Assembly (NCBI RefSeq): GCF_001307035.1 | Contig: NZ_LKIU01000003.1 | Coordinates: 694-64,693, forward strand | From: Arthrobacter sp. Edens01 | GTDB taxonomy: Bacteria; Actinomycetota; Actinomycetes; Actinomycetales; Micrococcaceae | Length of the DNA: 64,000 nucleotides | Direction: 5' to 3' | Part shown: in pieces, positions 4,877 through 61,820 of the stretch | How positions within the stretch are numbered: the first letter of the stretch is position 1 | How the letters are laid out: each line of letters opens with the position of its first letter | The notes under the pieces: generated by a model | Seen by the model: only the letters and a program-made list of their open reading frames with translations | Databases searched by the model: none | What the model was told of the DNA's origin: nothing | Program-made: the position numbers and the translations under genes

Positions 4877-6511
4877 CTAGGCAGCCGCAGCCGGTTCCCG
4901 GGATTCGTGCAGGAACCGGGCGTAGGCAGGAACGGTGAGGAACGTGGGGAACTGCTCGCCGCAGGCCACTTCCTCGAACAGCTCCAAGGCGTCCTCGAAA
5001 CGGTCACCGTCGAAGCGCTCCAGCTTGGAGAACTCGTCGTCCATGAGCTCCTCCACCCAGTGCTGGGTCACAATCTCGCCCTCGTCGGTCACTGCGGAGG
5101 AGTGGATCCACTGCCAGACCTGCGAACGGGAGATCTCCGCAGTGGCGGCGTCTTCCATCAGGTTGTTGATGGCAGCTGCGCCGTTGCCGCGGAGCCAGGA
5201 CTCGATGTAGCGGATTCCCACCTCGATGTTGCTGCGGATGCCGGCTTCGGTGATTACGCCCGGGGTGGCTGCAACGTTGAGCAGCTCCTTGTCGTTCGGG
5301 ATCACGTCCTCGCGGGAACGGTCCAGCTGGTTGGGACGGTCGCCCAGTACGCCGTCGAACACCTCCATGGCCACCGGCACCAGGTCCGGATGGGCAACCC
5401 AGGAACCGTCGAACCCGTCGTTGGCTTCACGGGTCTTGTCTGCGTGCACCCGCTCCATCGCGACGTCGTTCGCTGCCTTGTCCCGGCGGTTGGGGATGAA
5501 GGCGGCCATACCGCCGATTGCGTGGGCTCCGCGGCGGTGGCAGGCCCGAACCAGCTGCTCGGTGTAGGAGCGCATAAACGGAGCGGTCATGGTCACCATT
5601 GAACGGTCCGGGAGGATGAAGCGCGGACCGCGGGTGCGGAAGTTCTTGATCACCGAGAAGATGTAGTCCCAGCGGCCGGCGTTCAGGCCTGCAGCGTGGT
5701 CCCGCAGTTCGTAGAGGATCTCTTCCATCTCGAAGGCTGCGGTGATGGTTTCGATCAGCACGGTGGCGCGGATGGTGCCCTGCGGGATGCCGAGCAGGTC
5801 CTGGGCCAGGATGAAGATGTCATTCCACAGCCGGGCCTCGAGGTGGTTCTCGATCTTCGGCAGGTAGAAGTACGGGCCGCGGCCTTCAGCGATCAGCCGG
5901 TGCGCGTTGTGGAAGAAGTAGAGGCCGAAGTCCACGATTCCGCCGGCAATCGGGGTGTTGTTTACCAGCATGTGCTTTTCCGGCAGGTGCCAGCCGCGGG
6001 GCCGGACCACAATGGTGGGCAGGTCGGTGAGCGTGGTGCCGTTGATCTTGTATTCCTTGCCCTCGGGCGAGGTGAAGCCAAGCCTGTTGTTCAGGGCATC
6101 ACGCAGGTTCAGCTGCCCGTTGATCACGTTGGACCACGACGGCGTGGAGGAGTCCTCCATGTCCGCCAGCCATACCTTGGCACCGGAGTTCAGGGCGTTG
6201 ATGGTCATCTTCCGGTCCACGGGGCCGGTGATCTCCACGCGGCGGTCTTCCAGGCCCGGAGCGGTGGGAGCCACTTTCCAGGAGTCGTCTTCGCGGATGT
6301 GGCGGGTCTCCGGCAGGAACGAGGGGTCAGCGCCGTTGGAGATCTTCTGCCGCCGGGCCTGGCGCTGCTGGAGAAGCTCCTGGCGGCGGGTGTGGGTGGC
6401 CTGGTGCAGCGCCTTGACGAAGTCCAGGGCCTGCGGGGTGAGGATCTCCTCCTGCCGGCGGACCGGCGAAGCGGTGAGGGAAATACCGTTCAGGGTGATG
6501 GGATCGTTCAT
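4877..6511 (-). CDS. aceB: Malate synthase A
   Basis: Second enzyme of the glyoxylate shunt: condenses glyoxylate with acetyl-CoA to malate in the cytosol. The 544-aa length matches malate synthase A. Visible family segments include ITGPVDRKMTINALNSGA, KVWLADMEDSSTPSW, IVVRPRGWHLPEKH (with the catalytic Arg) and GRWDYIFSVIKNF. The ORF extends eight codons upstream, but the ATG at 6511 has AAGGAG at proper spacing and is preferred. It lies downstream of aceA in the same direction but is separated from it by a 66-nt palindromic element, so the two may be differentially expressed. Control by the RamB-like regulator at 8097 is inferred from corynebacteria. Confidence 0.96.
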   Translation of the reverse strand: MNDPITLNGISLTASPVRRQEEILTPQALDFVKALHQATHTRRQELLQQRQARRQKISNGADPSFLPETRHIREDDSWKVAPTAPGLEDRRVEITGPVDRKMTINALNSGAKVWLADMEDSSTPSWSNVINGQLNLRDALNNRLGFTSPEGKEYKINGTTLTDLPTIVVRPRGWHLPEKHMLVNNTPIAGGIVDFGLYFFHNAHRLIAEGRGPYFYLPKIENHLEARLWNDIFILAQDLLGIPQGTIRATVLIETITAAFEMEEILYELRDHAAGLNAGRWDYIFSVIKNFRTRGPRFILPDRSMVTMTAPFMRSYTEQLVRACHRRGAHAIGGMAAFIPNRRDKAANDVAMERVHADKTREANDGFDGSWVAHPDLVPVAMEVFDGVLGDRPNQLDRSREDVIPNDKELLNVAATPGVITEAGIRSNIEVGIRYIESWLRGNGAAAINNLMEDAATAEISRSQVWQWIHSSAVTDEGEIVTQHWVEELMDDEFSKLERFDGDRFEDALELFEEVACGEQFPTFLTVPAYARFLHESREPAAAA

Positions 6512-6555
6512 GGCGTGCTCCTTGGCGTGTTTCAAGAATTTGGGTTTCCCGCCCG

Positions 6556-6621
6556 CCCATCGAGATAACAGAAAGTGCTCTTTTCGAGGCCCTAACGGGC
6601 AGTTTCTGCTATCTCGATGGG
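6556..6621 (-). repeat. 66-nt palindromic intergenic element, copy 1
   Basis: Lies between aceA and aceB. Outer arms 6556-6574 and 6603-6621 are complementary over 19 bp with one G-U pair. Read on the minus strand it starts CCCATCGAGA and has CGAAAAGAG at element positions 36-44. It aligns without gaps to copy 2 at 9612-9677, yet the stem sequence differs while base pairing is kept. It may act as a terminator or mRNA stabiliser between the two glyoxylate genes. Confidence 0.8.
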
Positions 6622-6640
6622 GCGGGGAGAGTGGTGCTGG

Positions 6641-7948
6641 TTAGTGGAACTGGGCGGTTTCGGTGGAGCCGGCCAGTGCCAGGGTGCTGCCCTCGGGGTT
6701 CAGGGCGGTGGCAATTGCGTCGAAGTAGCCGGTGCCGACTTCGCGCTGGTGACGGGTAGCGGTGTAGCCGCGGTCTTCGGCGCCGAACTCGCGCTCCTGC
6801 AGTTCCACGTAGGCGCTCATGCCGGACCGGGCGTAGCCGTGGGCCAGGTCGAACATGGAGTAGTTCAGGGCGTGGAAGCCGGCGAGGGTGATGAACTGGA
6901 ACTTGAAGCCCATGGCACCGAGTTCGCGCTGGAACTTGGCGATGGTGTCATCGTCCAGGTGCTTCTTCCAGTTGAACGACGGCGAGCAGTTGTAGGCCAG
7001 CATCTGGTCCGGGAATTCCGAACGGACAGCTTCGGAGAACTTGCGGGCCATTTCCAGGTCCGGGGTGCCGGTCTCCATCCAGATGAGGTCGGAGTACGGT
7101 GCGTAGGCCTTGGCCCGGGCGATGCAGGGCTCAATGCCGTTGCGGACCTTGTAGAAGCCTTCAGCGGTGCGCTCGCCCGTGATGAACTCCTGGTCCCGCT
7201 CGTCGACGTCGGACGTGATCAGGGTTGCTGCCTCGGCGTCGGTGCGGGCGATCACCACGGTGGGTGTGTCTGCGACGTCGGCTGCCAGACGGGCAGCGTT
7301 AAGGGTGCGGATGTGCTGGCTGGTGGGGATCAGCACCTTGCCGCCGAGGTGGCCGCACTTCTTCTCCGAGGCGAGCTGGTCCTCCCAGTGAACGCCCGAG
7401 GCGCCGGCCTGGATCATGGACTTCATCAGTTCGTAGGCGTTCAGCGGGCCGCCGAAGCCGGCTTCGGCGTCGGCCACGATCGGCACCAGGTAGTCATCCA
7501 CGGACTGGATGCCTTCGGCGAACTCGATCTGGTCTGCGCGGAGCAGGGCGTTGTTGATGCGGCGGACGACGGTGGGAACCGAGTTGGCCGGGTAGAGCGA
7601 CTGGTCCGGGTAGGTGTGGCCGGAATTGTTGGCGTCAGCGGCAACCTGCCAGCCGGAGAGGTAGATGGCCTTCAGCCCGGCCTTGACCTGCTGCACGGCT
7701 TGGTTGCCAGTCAGGGCACCCAGTGCGTTCGTGTACCCCTCATCGCCGGCGTTGCGCAGCTGGTCCCACAGCTTCTCGGCACCGCGGCGGGCCAGGGTGT
7801 GCTCCTCCTGGACGCGGCCACGGAGCTTGACGACGTCTTCGGCAGTGTAATCGCGCTCGATGCCGTCCCAGCGGGGATCGGTGGCCCAATCCTGGGCGAG
7901 CTGCTCTGCGGTGCGTGCTGTCTGTTCGTGGCTGGGTACCTGCGTCAT
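6641..7948 (-). CDS. aceA: Isocitrate lyase
   Basis: First enzyme of the glyoxylate shunt: splits isocitrate into succinate and glyoxylate, allowing growth on acetate or fatty acids. The 435-aa length is typical of the bacterial enzyme. The signature KKCGH is present at residues 196-200 with catalytic Cys198. [12 protein letters not shown] and the downstream NCSPSFNW segment are also conserved. The ORF opens 23 codons earlier, but ATG 7948 begins the typical N-terminus and has GGAG upstream. It is transcribed divergently from the RamB-like gene across a 148-nt spacer. Confidence 0.97.
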
Positions 7949-8084
7949 TGCCTTACGTCTCCTAGGTTGCGGTGCGTTGCCGGCGGTGCGTGGATCCGGC
8001 ATTTCCTTGCTGTGCAATCAACACTCGGGCAAAAACAACCCCCTTTCTAGAGGTTTTCTATGGAAAGAAACGCAGTTCTTCGCT

Positions 8085-8090
8085 TATTGT
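8085..8090 (+). promoter_or_regulatory. Putative -10 hexamer for the RamB-like gene
   Basis: TATTGT followed by six bases and the GTG at 8097. No ribosome binding site is visible, so a leaderless mRNA is likely. The adjacent TTTC-TATG-GAAA dyad near 8056-8067 could be an operator, but it does not match the corynebacterial RamB consensus as I know it. Confidence 0.45.
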
Positions 8091-8096
8091 GAATTT

Positions 8097-9593
8097 GTGA
8101 CCAGCGCAACATGGAACCGGCCCATTTCAACCGGCAAAGCGAACGACGACGGCGCTGCTGACTCCACGCTCGACGTCATCTCCCTGGGCCGCCGGGTACG
8201 CCACCTGCGCAAGGGCAAAGGCATGACACTCGATGACCTGGGCGCCGCCGTCGGGACCGTGGCATCACAGCTCTCGCTGATCGAAAACGGCAAGCGTGAG
8301 CCGAAACTTGGCCTGCTGCAGTCCCTGGCCAAGGCGCTGGACGTGAGTATCGACCAGCTGCTCGGCTCGGAGCCGCCCAGCCGGCGCGCGGCACTTGAAA
8401 TCGAGCTGGAACGTGCCCAGCGCGGACCGCTGTACCAGTCCCTGGGCCTTCCGAAGGTTCGCGTTTCTTCGCGTTTGCCGCTGGACGTGCTTGAATCCCT
8501 GGTTGGGCTGCAGACTGAACTTGAGCGCCGCCTGAACGAACAGGTAGCAACGCCGGAGGAAGCCCGCCGCGCCAACGGCGAGCTCCGGGCGATGATGCGG
8601 GAGCGGAACAACTACTTCCCGGAGTACGAACAGGCGGCACAGAAGGTCCTGGATTCGGTGGGGCATACCAACGGTCCGCTGTCCCAGCACGTTATTGCTG
8701 ACATTGCCGCGCACCTGGGCTTTAGCCTGCACCACGTCTCGGACCTGCCGCACTCCACCCGTTCCGTCACCGACCTGAAGAACAAACGGATCTACCTGAC
8801 CCAGTCCCAGCGCTCCGAGCATGATCCGCGCTCAGTACTGCTGCAGGCACTGGGGCACTACGTCCTGGACCACCAGACACCGCGAAGCTACGGGGAGTTC
8901 CTCAGCCAGCGCGTGGCCACCAACTACTTCGCCGCAGCCCTGCTGCTGCCGGAGAAGGCGACGGTCGAGTTCCTGCAGCGGGCCAAGGCAGCCAAGGAAA
9001 TCGCCGTCGAGGATATCCGTGACGCGTTTGCGGTCTCCTACGAAACAGCCGCGCACCGCTTCACCAACCTGGCCACTGAACACCTGGGCATCCACACCCA
9101 TTTCCAGAAGGTCCACGAGAGCGGCATTGTCTACAAGGCCTACGAAAACGACGGCGTGACGTTCCCTTCCGACCACACCGGCGCGATCGAGGGCCAGCCG
9201 ATCTGCCGGTACTGGACCAGCCGTGAGGTGTTCTCGGTGCCGGACAAATTCAGTGCCTACAACCAGTACACCGACACTCCGGCGGGCACGTTCTGGTGCA
9301 CCGCCCGGACCGAGCGGAGTTCCGGCGGACTGTTCTCGCTGAGCATCGGCGTTCCGTACGCCCATGTGAAGTGGTTCCGCGGGCGGGACACCACCGAGCG
9401 GTCCAAGTCACGCTGCCCGGACCCGGACTGCTGCCGCACGCCGCCGTCGGAGCTGGCCACTGAATGGTCGGGCATGGCCTGGCCGAGTGCCCGCGCGCAC
9501 TCGCACCTGCTGGCCGCGCTGCCCCCGGGCGCGTTCCCGGGCGTGGATGAGACTGAGGTGTACAGCTTCCTGCAGGCGCACTCCGGGGACTGA
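8097..9593 (+). CDS. RamB-like XRE-family transcriptional regulator
   Basis: A 498-aa regulator: N-terminal Cro/C1 helix-turn-helix (about 29-85, with GMTLDDLGAAVG and SQLSLIENGKREP), a central ImmA/IrrE-like domain and a C-terminal short-chain fatty acyl regulator-type domain with a Cys cluster (CPDPDCC, about 440-446). In Corynebacterium RamB controls aceA/aceB and acetate genes, and the divergent position next to aceA supports the same job. The metallopeptidase HExxH is replaced by QALGH near residue 250, so the central domain is probably a sensor rather than a protease. The ORF is open further upstream, but that would overlap aceA. GTG 8097 has a leaderless-type -10. Confidence 0.88.
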   Translation: MTSATWNRPISTGKANDDGAADSTLDVISLGRRVRHLRKGKGMTLDDLGAAVGTVASQLSLIENGKREPKLGLLQSLAKALDVSIDQLLGSEPPSRRAALEIELERAQRGPLYQSLGLPKVRVSSRLPLDVLESLVGLQTELERRLNEQVATPEEARRANGELRAMMRERNNYFPEYEQAAQKVLDSVGHTNGPLSQHVIADIAAHLGFSLHHVSDLPHSTRSVTDLKNKRIYLTQSQRSEHDPRSVLLQALGHYVLDHQTPRSYGEFLSQRVATNYFAAALLLPEKATVEFLQRAKAAKEIAVEDIRDAFAVSYETAAHRFTNLATEHLGIHTHFQKVHESGIVYKAYENDGVTFPSDHTGAIEGQPICRYWTSREVFSVPDKFSAYNQYTDTPAGTFWCTARTERSSGGLFSLSIGVPYAHVKWFRGRDTTERSKSRCPDPDCCRTPPSELATEWSGMAWPSARAHSHLLAALPPGAFPGVDETEVYSFLQAHSGD

Positions 9594-9611
9594 CGCGGTT
9601 CGCCCATGTCA

Positions 9612-9677
9612 CCCATCGAGAGGCCAGTTACGGCTCGTTTCACGCCCGAAAAGAGCCGTAACTGGCCTCTCGGCGGT
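9612..9677 (+). repeat. 66-nt palindromic intergenic element, copy 2
   Basis: Lies between the convergent ramB-like and map genes. Perfect 20-bp stem (9617-9636 with 9653-9672) and a 16-nt loop containing CGAAAA. It starts CCCATCGAGA and carries CGAAAAGAG at the same internal position as copy 1. It is well placed to serve as a bidirectional terminator. Confidence 0.82.
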
Positions 9678-9700
9678 CGGCGGGGAGTGCAGGAGAGGGA

Positions 9701-10477
9701 TTACGACGGCGTGGGAAGCGTAAGGATCTCGGCGCCGTCGTCCGTAATAACAATGGTGTGCTCGCTGTGGGCGCTGCGGGCGCCGGTTGCACTGCGCAGC
9801 GTCCAGCCGTCCGCGTCAAAGGTCAGCTGGTCGGTGTCCGCCATGACCCACGGCTCCAGTGCGAGCATCAGGCCGGGGCTGAGCACATAGCCGCGTCCGG
9901 GCCGGCCTGTGTTGGGGATGTGCGGGTCCTGGTGCATGGTGGAGCCGATGCCGTGGCCGCCGAACTCGGTGTTGACGGGGTAGCCGGCTTCGGAGAGTAC
10001 CGTGCCGATGGCATGGGAGAGGTCGCCGATCCGTGCTCCCGGCCCGGCGGCGGCAATTCCGGCTGCCAGTGCCCGTTCGGTGGCGGTAATGAGCTTTATG
10101 CTCTCGGCCGGTTTGGCGTCCCCCACCACAAAGCTGATCGCGGAGTCGGCGGCAATCCCGGCCTTGGACACAGCCAGGTCCAGGCTGAGCAGATCGCCGT
10201 CCTGCAGCTCGTAGTCGTGCGGCAGCCCGTGCAGCACGGCATCGTTCACACCGGTGCAGATGTAGTGGCCGAAAGGCCCGCGGCCGAAGGATGGCGCGTA
10301 GTCGATGTAGCAGGACTCTGCCCCGGCTTCGCGGATCATTTCTCCCGTCCACCGGTCGATTTCCAGCAGGTTGGTGCCGACTGTTGCCCGCTTTTTCATC
10401 GTCTGCAGGATGTCCGCGACCAGGCGGCCGGTGACGCGTGCCTTCGCCACTTCGGCCGGGTTCAGGATCTCGATCAT
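9701..10477 (-). CDS. map: Methionine aminopeptidase, type I
   Basis: Removes the N-terminal initiator Met from nascent proteins in the cytosol. The 258-aa length is standard for type Ia enzymes. The dinuclear metal ligands are visible: Asp in LLSLDLAVSK, Asp in IAADSAISF, His in GHGIGSTMHQDP, Glu in LALEPWVM and Glu in AHSEHTIVIT. A GAAAGG ribosome binding site precedes ATG 10477. It is divergent from the glycosylase gene at 10548. Actinobacteria often carry a second map copy near secY or infA, so this may be a paralogue. Confidence 0.95.
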   Translation of the reverse strand: MIEILNPAEVAKARVTGRLVADILQTMKKRATVGTNLLEIDRWTGEMIREAGAESCYIDYAPSFGRGPFGHYICTGVNDAVLHGLPHDYELQDGDLLSLDLAVSKAGIAADSAISFVVGDAKPAESIKLITATERALAAGIAAAGPGARIGDLSHAIGTVLSEAGYPVNTEFGGHGIGSTMHQDPHIPNTGRPGRGYVLSPGLMLALEPWVMADTDQLTFDADGWTLRSATGARSAHSEHTIVITDDGAEILTLPTPS

Positions 10478-61686: not shown

Positions 61687-61719
61687 CAAGACCTGCGGCG
61701 CCAACCACTGGAAGAGGCT

Positions 61720-61756
61720 AGAAACGGCTGCTTTGATCCTCAAAGCAGCCGTTTCT
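61720..61756 (+). terminator. Terminator after the winged-helix gene
   Basis: Perfect 17-bp stem (AGAAACGGCTGCTTTGA and complement), 3-nt loop. Confidence 0.88.
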
Positions 61757-61820
61757 GCCCTCTCAGGATGCCGGTCCCTGCAGGGCAGAGGCCGCGGCCC
61801 GGCCAGGGCCCCCGCGCGGA

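Follow-up and report, generated by a model that had tools for sequence, protein, structure and literature searches.

Two 66-nt palindromes beside aceA and a ramB-like gene of Arthrobacter sp. Edens01 are members of a large, genome-wide family of repeats with covarying stems, which occupies at least 65 places in this genome. The copies sit mostly at gene 3' ends, form long inverted repeats that are not followed by a U-tract, are conserved at their sites in a close relative and, at many sites in sister species, have unrelated hairpins as their counterparts. With a probability of roughly 55%, we read them as a lineage-specific repeat family, REP-like in its habit and devoid of a REP-associated Y1 transposase (RAYT), that has been maintained as a 3'-end structure serving both directions, with U-tract-less hairpins that would end or protect transcripts. 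The overall pattern suggests a spreading repeat that was adopted to mark the ends of gene messages and placed at spots that in sister species are often occupied by other hairpins.

The two starting palindromes and their family

Both palindromes were found at the coordinates and on the strands that the original prediction had given (6556-6621, minus; 9612-9677, plus) in the window, which is the whole 64,000-nt stretch of Edens01 DNA that was analysed; they align without gaps and have CCCATCGAGA and CGAAAAGAG in common. In 100-nt stretches, the fold energies are -52.9 kcal/mol (6556-6621) and -61.7 kcal/mol (9612-9677), with z-scores as given in Table 1, and none of 200 dinucleotide shuffles folds as well as either palindrome. 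The GCYCGTT block, which had been assigned to the loop, in fact forms the inner portion of the 5' arm. The stems do differ while each remains self-complementary, as had been claimed, and they differ because each palindrome represents one of the two stem types, CAGAAACTGC and CAGTTACGGC, that predominate in their common family. Further along the window lies a third copy, with a weaker match (Table 1). The window contains only two tRNAs at the Rfam gathering score and the palindromes match none of the Rfam families, which rules out a known RNA family.

Table 1. Palindromes and neighbouring genes in the window. Distances from the aceA and ramB stops are measured to the 62-column core; the name ramB is provisional, as the NF038139 score is far under its cut-off of 700 bits.
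Feature	Position	Strand	Evidence
aceB, malate synthase A, following the first palindrome on the same strand	4877..6511	-	TIGR01344 4.4e-230; own gene caller
Family palindrome of the AA stem type, in the aceA-aceB gap	6555..6622	-	R1 72.3 bits on -, 58.4 on +; fold z -7.2; core 21 nt from aceA stop
aceA, isocitrate lyase, first palindrome at its 3' end	6641..7948	-	NCBIfam PRK15063.1 5.2e-238; own gene caller
ramB-like regulator, second palindrome at its 3' end	8097..9593	+	NF038139 RamB 56.5 bits; own gene caller
Family palindrome of the TT stem type, flanked by ramB and a convergent methionyl aminopeptidase gene	9611..9678	+	R1 84.1 bits on +, 79.4 on -; fold z -8.0; core 20 nt from ramB stop
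Methionyl aminopeptidase (type I) gene, converging on ramB, second palindrome common to both	9701..10477	-	TIGR00500 1.4e-65; own gene caller
Third, diverged family palindrome, 21 nt 3' of the stop of a plus-strand gene	61705..61769	+	R1 45.7 bits on +, 42.4 on -

The extent of the family was determined with a covariance model, R1, built from 20 copies, of which 16 came from the Edens01 genome (G000) and four from the genus genomes G022, G023, and G025, so that matches in those genomes arise partly by construction. Because each palindrome is matched on both strands, the 130 R1 matches in the Edens01 genome (E <= 0.01; best 150 of 914 candidates scored) correspond to at least 65 places. The absence of further copies and of covariation, which the original prediction had named as grounds for giving up the idea, was thus not what the search returned. 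Simpler patterns agree with the model: 20 matches were obtained with a loose loop pattern against 0 for its reversed control, and a half-site pattern gives 68 + 66 matches in this genome against 1 + 3 with a reversed-letter control, revealing a few additional copies that are split, either by an IS element or at assembly gaps.

The source genome is that of a member of the Micrococcaceae near Arthrobacter citreus and A. koreensis, and the exact arm pattern occurs in genome contigs of A. citreus, A. koreensis, and A. gandavensis only (13 stretches). Within the genus, 22 of 29 genomes contain at least one R1 match. When both strands are counted and the best 150 candidates scored, so that there are two matches per place, the richest genomes are G000 (130), G022 (A. 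citreus, at least 150), G025 (A. koreensis, at least 150), G005 (147), and G023 (123), the four relatives of Edens01 thus having about 61 to at least 75 places each. These are followed by G004 (62), G007 (50), G011 (15), G003 (8), and G013 (7), with 0-4 matches in the other 19. In a tree of ramB and aceA, the five richest genomes group together, although without strong support (81/72), while G007 and G011 form a further group (100/100) and the copy-poor G024 and G006 adjoin the group of Edens01.

Beyond the genus, R1 matches 49 of 197 Micrococcaceae genomes in 15 of 32 genera, and 21 of 248 genomes in an order-level set. A control model with the order of the stem reversed, and with the same composition and pairs, matches 0 of the 197 family genomes (best 26 candidates per genome scored for the true and the control model; no genome is known to match the control). 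Chance resemblance among ordinary, unrelated terminators was rejected, since the sequence is common to copies throughout the genome and the reversed-stem control matches none of the candidates scored. At 24 of the 28 loci read in other species and genera, a stop codon faces the palindrome at a distance of 40 nt or less. Carriage by phages or plasmids was also considered and no match to either was found; a single match elsewhere was at chance level (E 0.7, Haloprofundus). Among the papers listed by searches of the open literature, none deals with such a palindrome family in Arthrobacter. RepRanger devotes one line of counts to Arthrobacter livingstonensis, so that copies may already be among those counts, though undescribed (PMC12306157).

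Stem structure, covariation, and sequence dialects

The arms comprise 28 bp and are complementary at positions that vary among copies. Across the 20 copies of the model, the 28 pairs have 87.3% of cells paired, and the covariation score is 0.215, as opposed to 0.096 for shuffled columns and at most 0.071 for slid partners. Column counts were made on the 58 of 65 copies that are of equal length, the seven with a length other than 68 being left out, and in these the invariant blocks CGA.A, CAG, and GC alternate with covarying variable pairs. Pairing exceeds what column make-up alone would give at variable pairs 12-14, 18, 19, 22, 25, 27, and 29-31; pair 14, for example, is complementary in 43 copies versus 19.8 expected, pair 22 in 57 versus 28.3, and pair 25 in 52 versus 24.5, and because the copies are related to one another these tests do not count independent events. 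The excess also holds inside the stem classes, of which two dominate, AA (37 copies) and TT (20). The C-rich and G-rich flanks do not extend the stem, as they do not covary (1 of 25 positions at z 3.0). Counts of G-U versus A-C, which test for an effect at the RNA level, are 17 and 12.

The compensatory stem changes of the original prediction are therefore real across the copies of the family, but they are nearly absent between orthologs: nine orthologous pairs of the same stem type are identical at 59-67 of 68 positions and contain only one double compensatory change. The covariation arises from comparing different copies, not orthologs. This scarcity between orthologs is what one might expect if the arms were kept alike by copying, through template switching or conversion between them, and the covariation recorded mutation as opposed to structural selection. 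Perfect spacer-less palindromes at the centres of AA-class copies, such as CAGCGCTG, GAAGCTTC, and GGAGCTCC, would fit arm copying as well. However, copying leaves the gene-end position and the invariant blocks unexplained, and TT-class copies have no centre symmetry (35 of 60 versus 34.9 shuffled), which makes this explanation highly improbable.

The centre of the AA class raises a different question. Here, complementarity continues through the dyad axis, with pairs 33-36 and 34-35 each complementary in 26 of 37 copies versus 16.9 and 15.4 when shuffled; once duplicate centres are removed, the counts are 17 and 15 of 25 versus 11.0 and 9.3, with 16 and 17 of 2000 shuffles as high. Bases at the dyad axis cannot pair in a hairpin, and this feature counts against the hairpin reading. 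Together with the symmetric invariant blocks (CGAGA, CAG, and GC) in both arms and the insertion of an IS30-family element at the centre, it could instead indicate a duplex DNA site for a dimeric protein, perhaps a nucleoid protein, a gyrase-like enzyme, or a transposase, that lies between genes only incidentally. Such a site would need no complementarity at positions that vary from copy to copy, yet exactly those positions covary, and the palindromes adjoin stop codons. Judged from sequence features of this kind, a dimer site is improbable, if less so than arm copying.

Other lineages carry their own sequence dialects of the palindrome, as is likewise the case for the DNA uptake sequences of Neisseria and Haemophilus. 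In G194, six of seven copies start with CGACT and have CGG where Edens01 has CAG or so, while in G007 a TGGC block and an inner arm resembling TTCCCAG recur in nine copies. The design that these dialects and the two copies each from G087 and G168 have in common consists of 28-bp arms in which CGA stands close to the ends and GC close to the centre. A broader and rather speculative reading, which we think unlikely, is that a single ancient palindrome design, with 28-bp arms, blocks of CGA and GC, and a location at gene ends, exists throughout the Micrococcaceae as lineage dialects that spread without a RAYT and in places occupy positions where relatives have ordinary U-tract terminators. If so, the dyad-axis symmetry and the dialects would point to a dedicated factor that recognizes and copies the palindrome, and transcript-end signals would behave as a mobile, dialect-bound repeat.

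Gene ends and the same sites in related genomes

A gene 3' end faces 63 of the 65 copies, and in 59 the facing stop codon lies within 40 nt (median 14 nt), including six that overlap a predicted gene end, whereas random placement in A. citreus intergenic gaps would put 13.5% within this distance. The overlaps amount to 1-36 nt, one copy is spanned by a predicted ORF, and the remainder are intergenic, so that the palindromes are not coding sequence. Genes were called with our own codon-usage script, trained on the Edens01 genome and applied to the other genomes too, which yields 32 convergent, 22 codirectional, two divergent, one open, and eight overlapping positions; after the overlaps are resolved by hand, these become 36 convergent, 26 codirectional, two divergent, and one undetermined, compared with expected placement weights of 9.4% for convergent and 33% for divergent gaps. 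The flanks are about half C over roughly ten bases before the palindrome and about half G after it, and are mirror images of one another because they were counted on both strands. No U-tract follows the stem: the longest T-run is four, in 4 of 116 stem ends, and T averages 1.44 of 12 nt.

These features suggest how the palindrome may work. A transcript of either gene would run through it and fold a 28-bp hairpin just 3' of the stop codon, and at convergent pairs one palindrome would serve both genes. This U-tract-less hairpin would most likely end the transcript, or else block 3'-to-5' decay. In some lineages, copies would have been gained at many gene ends, sometimes where relatives have ordinary terminators, and would then have been retained at the site. 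The copies have the stable hairpin close after the stop codon, without a U-tract, that defines the I-shaped terminators proposed for mycobacteria, namely long hairpins at most 50 nt after a stop codon that lack poly-U (PMC12288462), and they lack the U-tract of canonical intrinsic terminators. Unlike I-shaped terminators, which that source does not describe in such terms, the Arthrobacter copies form one sequence family with dialects and with C-rich and G-rich flanks (PMC12288462). The missing U-tract weighs against our reading: termination without one by actinobacterial RNA polymerase is disputed, and one title cited in the same source states that the U-tract is required (PMC12288462). If our reading is true, a spreading repeat supplies part of the transcript-end signals in a high-GC lineage, and the turnover of terminators is visible species by species. 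The family would also offer a clean natural set on which the disputed mode of termination could be tested, comprising tens of nearly identical hairpins without a U-tract at defined gene ends, together with sister genomes in which U-tract hairpins take their place.

Comparison with related genomes shows both conservation and replacement. In A. citreus, a palindrome is present at every one of the nine Edens01 sites from C5:206501 to C5:527453, in one case of the other stem type, and the 400 kb read there contain one extra copy that is absent from the 65 of Edens01. At C5:510563, the same gene boundary has different stem types in Edens01 and in A. citreus (L178:3881-3949), with 29 of 68 positions identical, and it looks as if one copy of the family replaced another.

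In the gap between aceA and aceB, seven of 15 genus genomes (G000, G025, G022, G005, G023, G011, and G007) have a family copy, that of G023 being of the other stem type, while the other eight have unrelated GC-rich hairpins in the same spot, also without a U-tract. The interval corresponding to 6511-6641 of the window therefore holds a strong U-tract-less hairpin in 15 of 15 genus genomes read, in several unrelated sequences. Perhaps the hairpin here sets the ratio of aceA to aceB expression. On the 3' side of ramB, a family copy is present in G000 and G023, and G024, G006, and G001 have only 20-27 nt and no hairpin. In G025, G022, and G005, ramB is adjoined neither by the palindrome nor by the methionyl aminopeptidase (map) gene. 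The map gene that is convergent with ramB in Edens01 is thus not the neighbour of ramB in these three genomes (L157, L158, and L159).

Thirteen Edens01 sites were compared with G006 or G024. One has a family copy (C2:606364), nine have unrelated hairpins (at two of these, C2:749967 and C5:709199, the gap is longer and the comparison loose), and three (C3:10304, C3:71854, and C3:62398) have no comparable hairpin, so that a gene pair can do without one. These three sites, and the ramB site without a copy in G025, G022, and G005, weigh against the reading preferred here. T-runs of at least four accompany five of the nine unrelated hairpins (C5:791479, C2:369542, C2:571415, C2:367625, and C2:585981). 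Whether a given gene end bears a hairpin of the family or a different one can therefore vary between species. For a comparison with MITEs, which have terminal inverted repeats and a target-site duplication, the copy-less gaps at ramB-map, C3:71854, and C3:62398 are too diverged for an insertion joint to be recognized.

Relation to REPs, uptake sequences, and IS30-family elements

The original prediction offered both a REP-like element and a terminator, and the position of the palindromes fits both, because the copies sit mostly at gene 3' ends. The RAYT that it suggested looking for is missing: PF01797 is absent from 15 of 15 genus genomes searched, while the same search was positive in 5 of 14 named genomes used as a control, and mobility driven by a RAYT was rejected. 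The conserved ends also lack a GTAG or CGTC tag in the column make-up of the 58 copies, showing CAT/CGAGA instead. The family nevertheless resembles REP elements of the GTAG and CGTC superfamilies and BIMEs, which are likewise repeated intergenic palindromes that lie mostly at gene 3' ends or between convergent genes, vary in copy number with lineage, and serve as IS targets (PMC3733652; PMC1525189). It differs from them in its arms, which are 28 bp long as opposed to 5-13 bp in REPs (PMC3733652), and in having neither end tag nor Y1 transposase. CGTC REPs are also without a dedicated transposase (PMC3733652), and the Arthrobacter family would be, like them, a REP-like repeat without a known carrier.

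Given this likeness, the family might be a selfish REP-like repeat with no useful role, which lands anywhere and survives only between gene ends because other insertions are harmful. Its high copy number is restricted to certain lineages, its centre is the target of an IS30-family element, much as IS elements insert in REPs (PMC1525189), and its stem type has changed at one orthologous site and, beside aceA, is a different one in G023, all of which a selfish repeat could explain, as it could the gene-end position that REPs themselves have. Nonetheless, with a median of 14 nt the copies lie closer to the stop codon than mere avoidance of genes would lead one to expect, the sites are kept in A. 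citreus, other hairpins occupy the same spots in sister genomes, and none of the 15 genomes has a RAYT. A purely selfish repeat is accordingly a possible explanation, though one that we hold to be rather unlikely, and we prefer that of a repeat retained as a 3'-end structure.

The inverted DNA uptake sequence terminators of Neisseria and Haemophilus are similar in that a repeated word forms inverted pairs at gene ends and has a proposed role as a terminator (PMC2267715). Unlike an uptake sequence, the Arthrobacter arm does not turn up on its own; among the half-sites listed, those outside the 65 palindromes sit in copies split by an IS or beside an assembly gap. About 70 copies are also few for an uptake signal. 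With the half-sites listed either paired or part of interrupted copies, and single arm words not frequent among them, an uptake-sequence terminator was rejected.

One pair of half-sites, 1.3 kb apart, encloses an IS30-family transposase (NF033563, 2.4e-79), and the element lies at the centre of a TT-type palindrome (L126:2935-4242, contig C6 of the Edens01 genome). The 1.3-kb stretch is an IS with its own ends, unrelated to the palindrome, and this rules out the palindrome arms as transposon ends. All six IS ends found in the Edens01 genome, at five sites, begin 30-31 nt into the arm, about 3 nt or less from the dyad axis, as does the single IS end in G005; the single IS end in G006 (two mismatches) is not at a palindrome centre. 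The IS30-family element thus uses the palindrome as a target. Insertion of IS elements in REPs is known, and the five families that the source names do not include IS30 (PMC1525189). Two of the IS sites lie at contig ends, which indicates that the IS breaks the assembly. Runs of N also occur at two palindromes (L127 near 2390 and L128 near 2060), one of them inside an IS copy and the other beside an arm.
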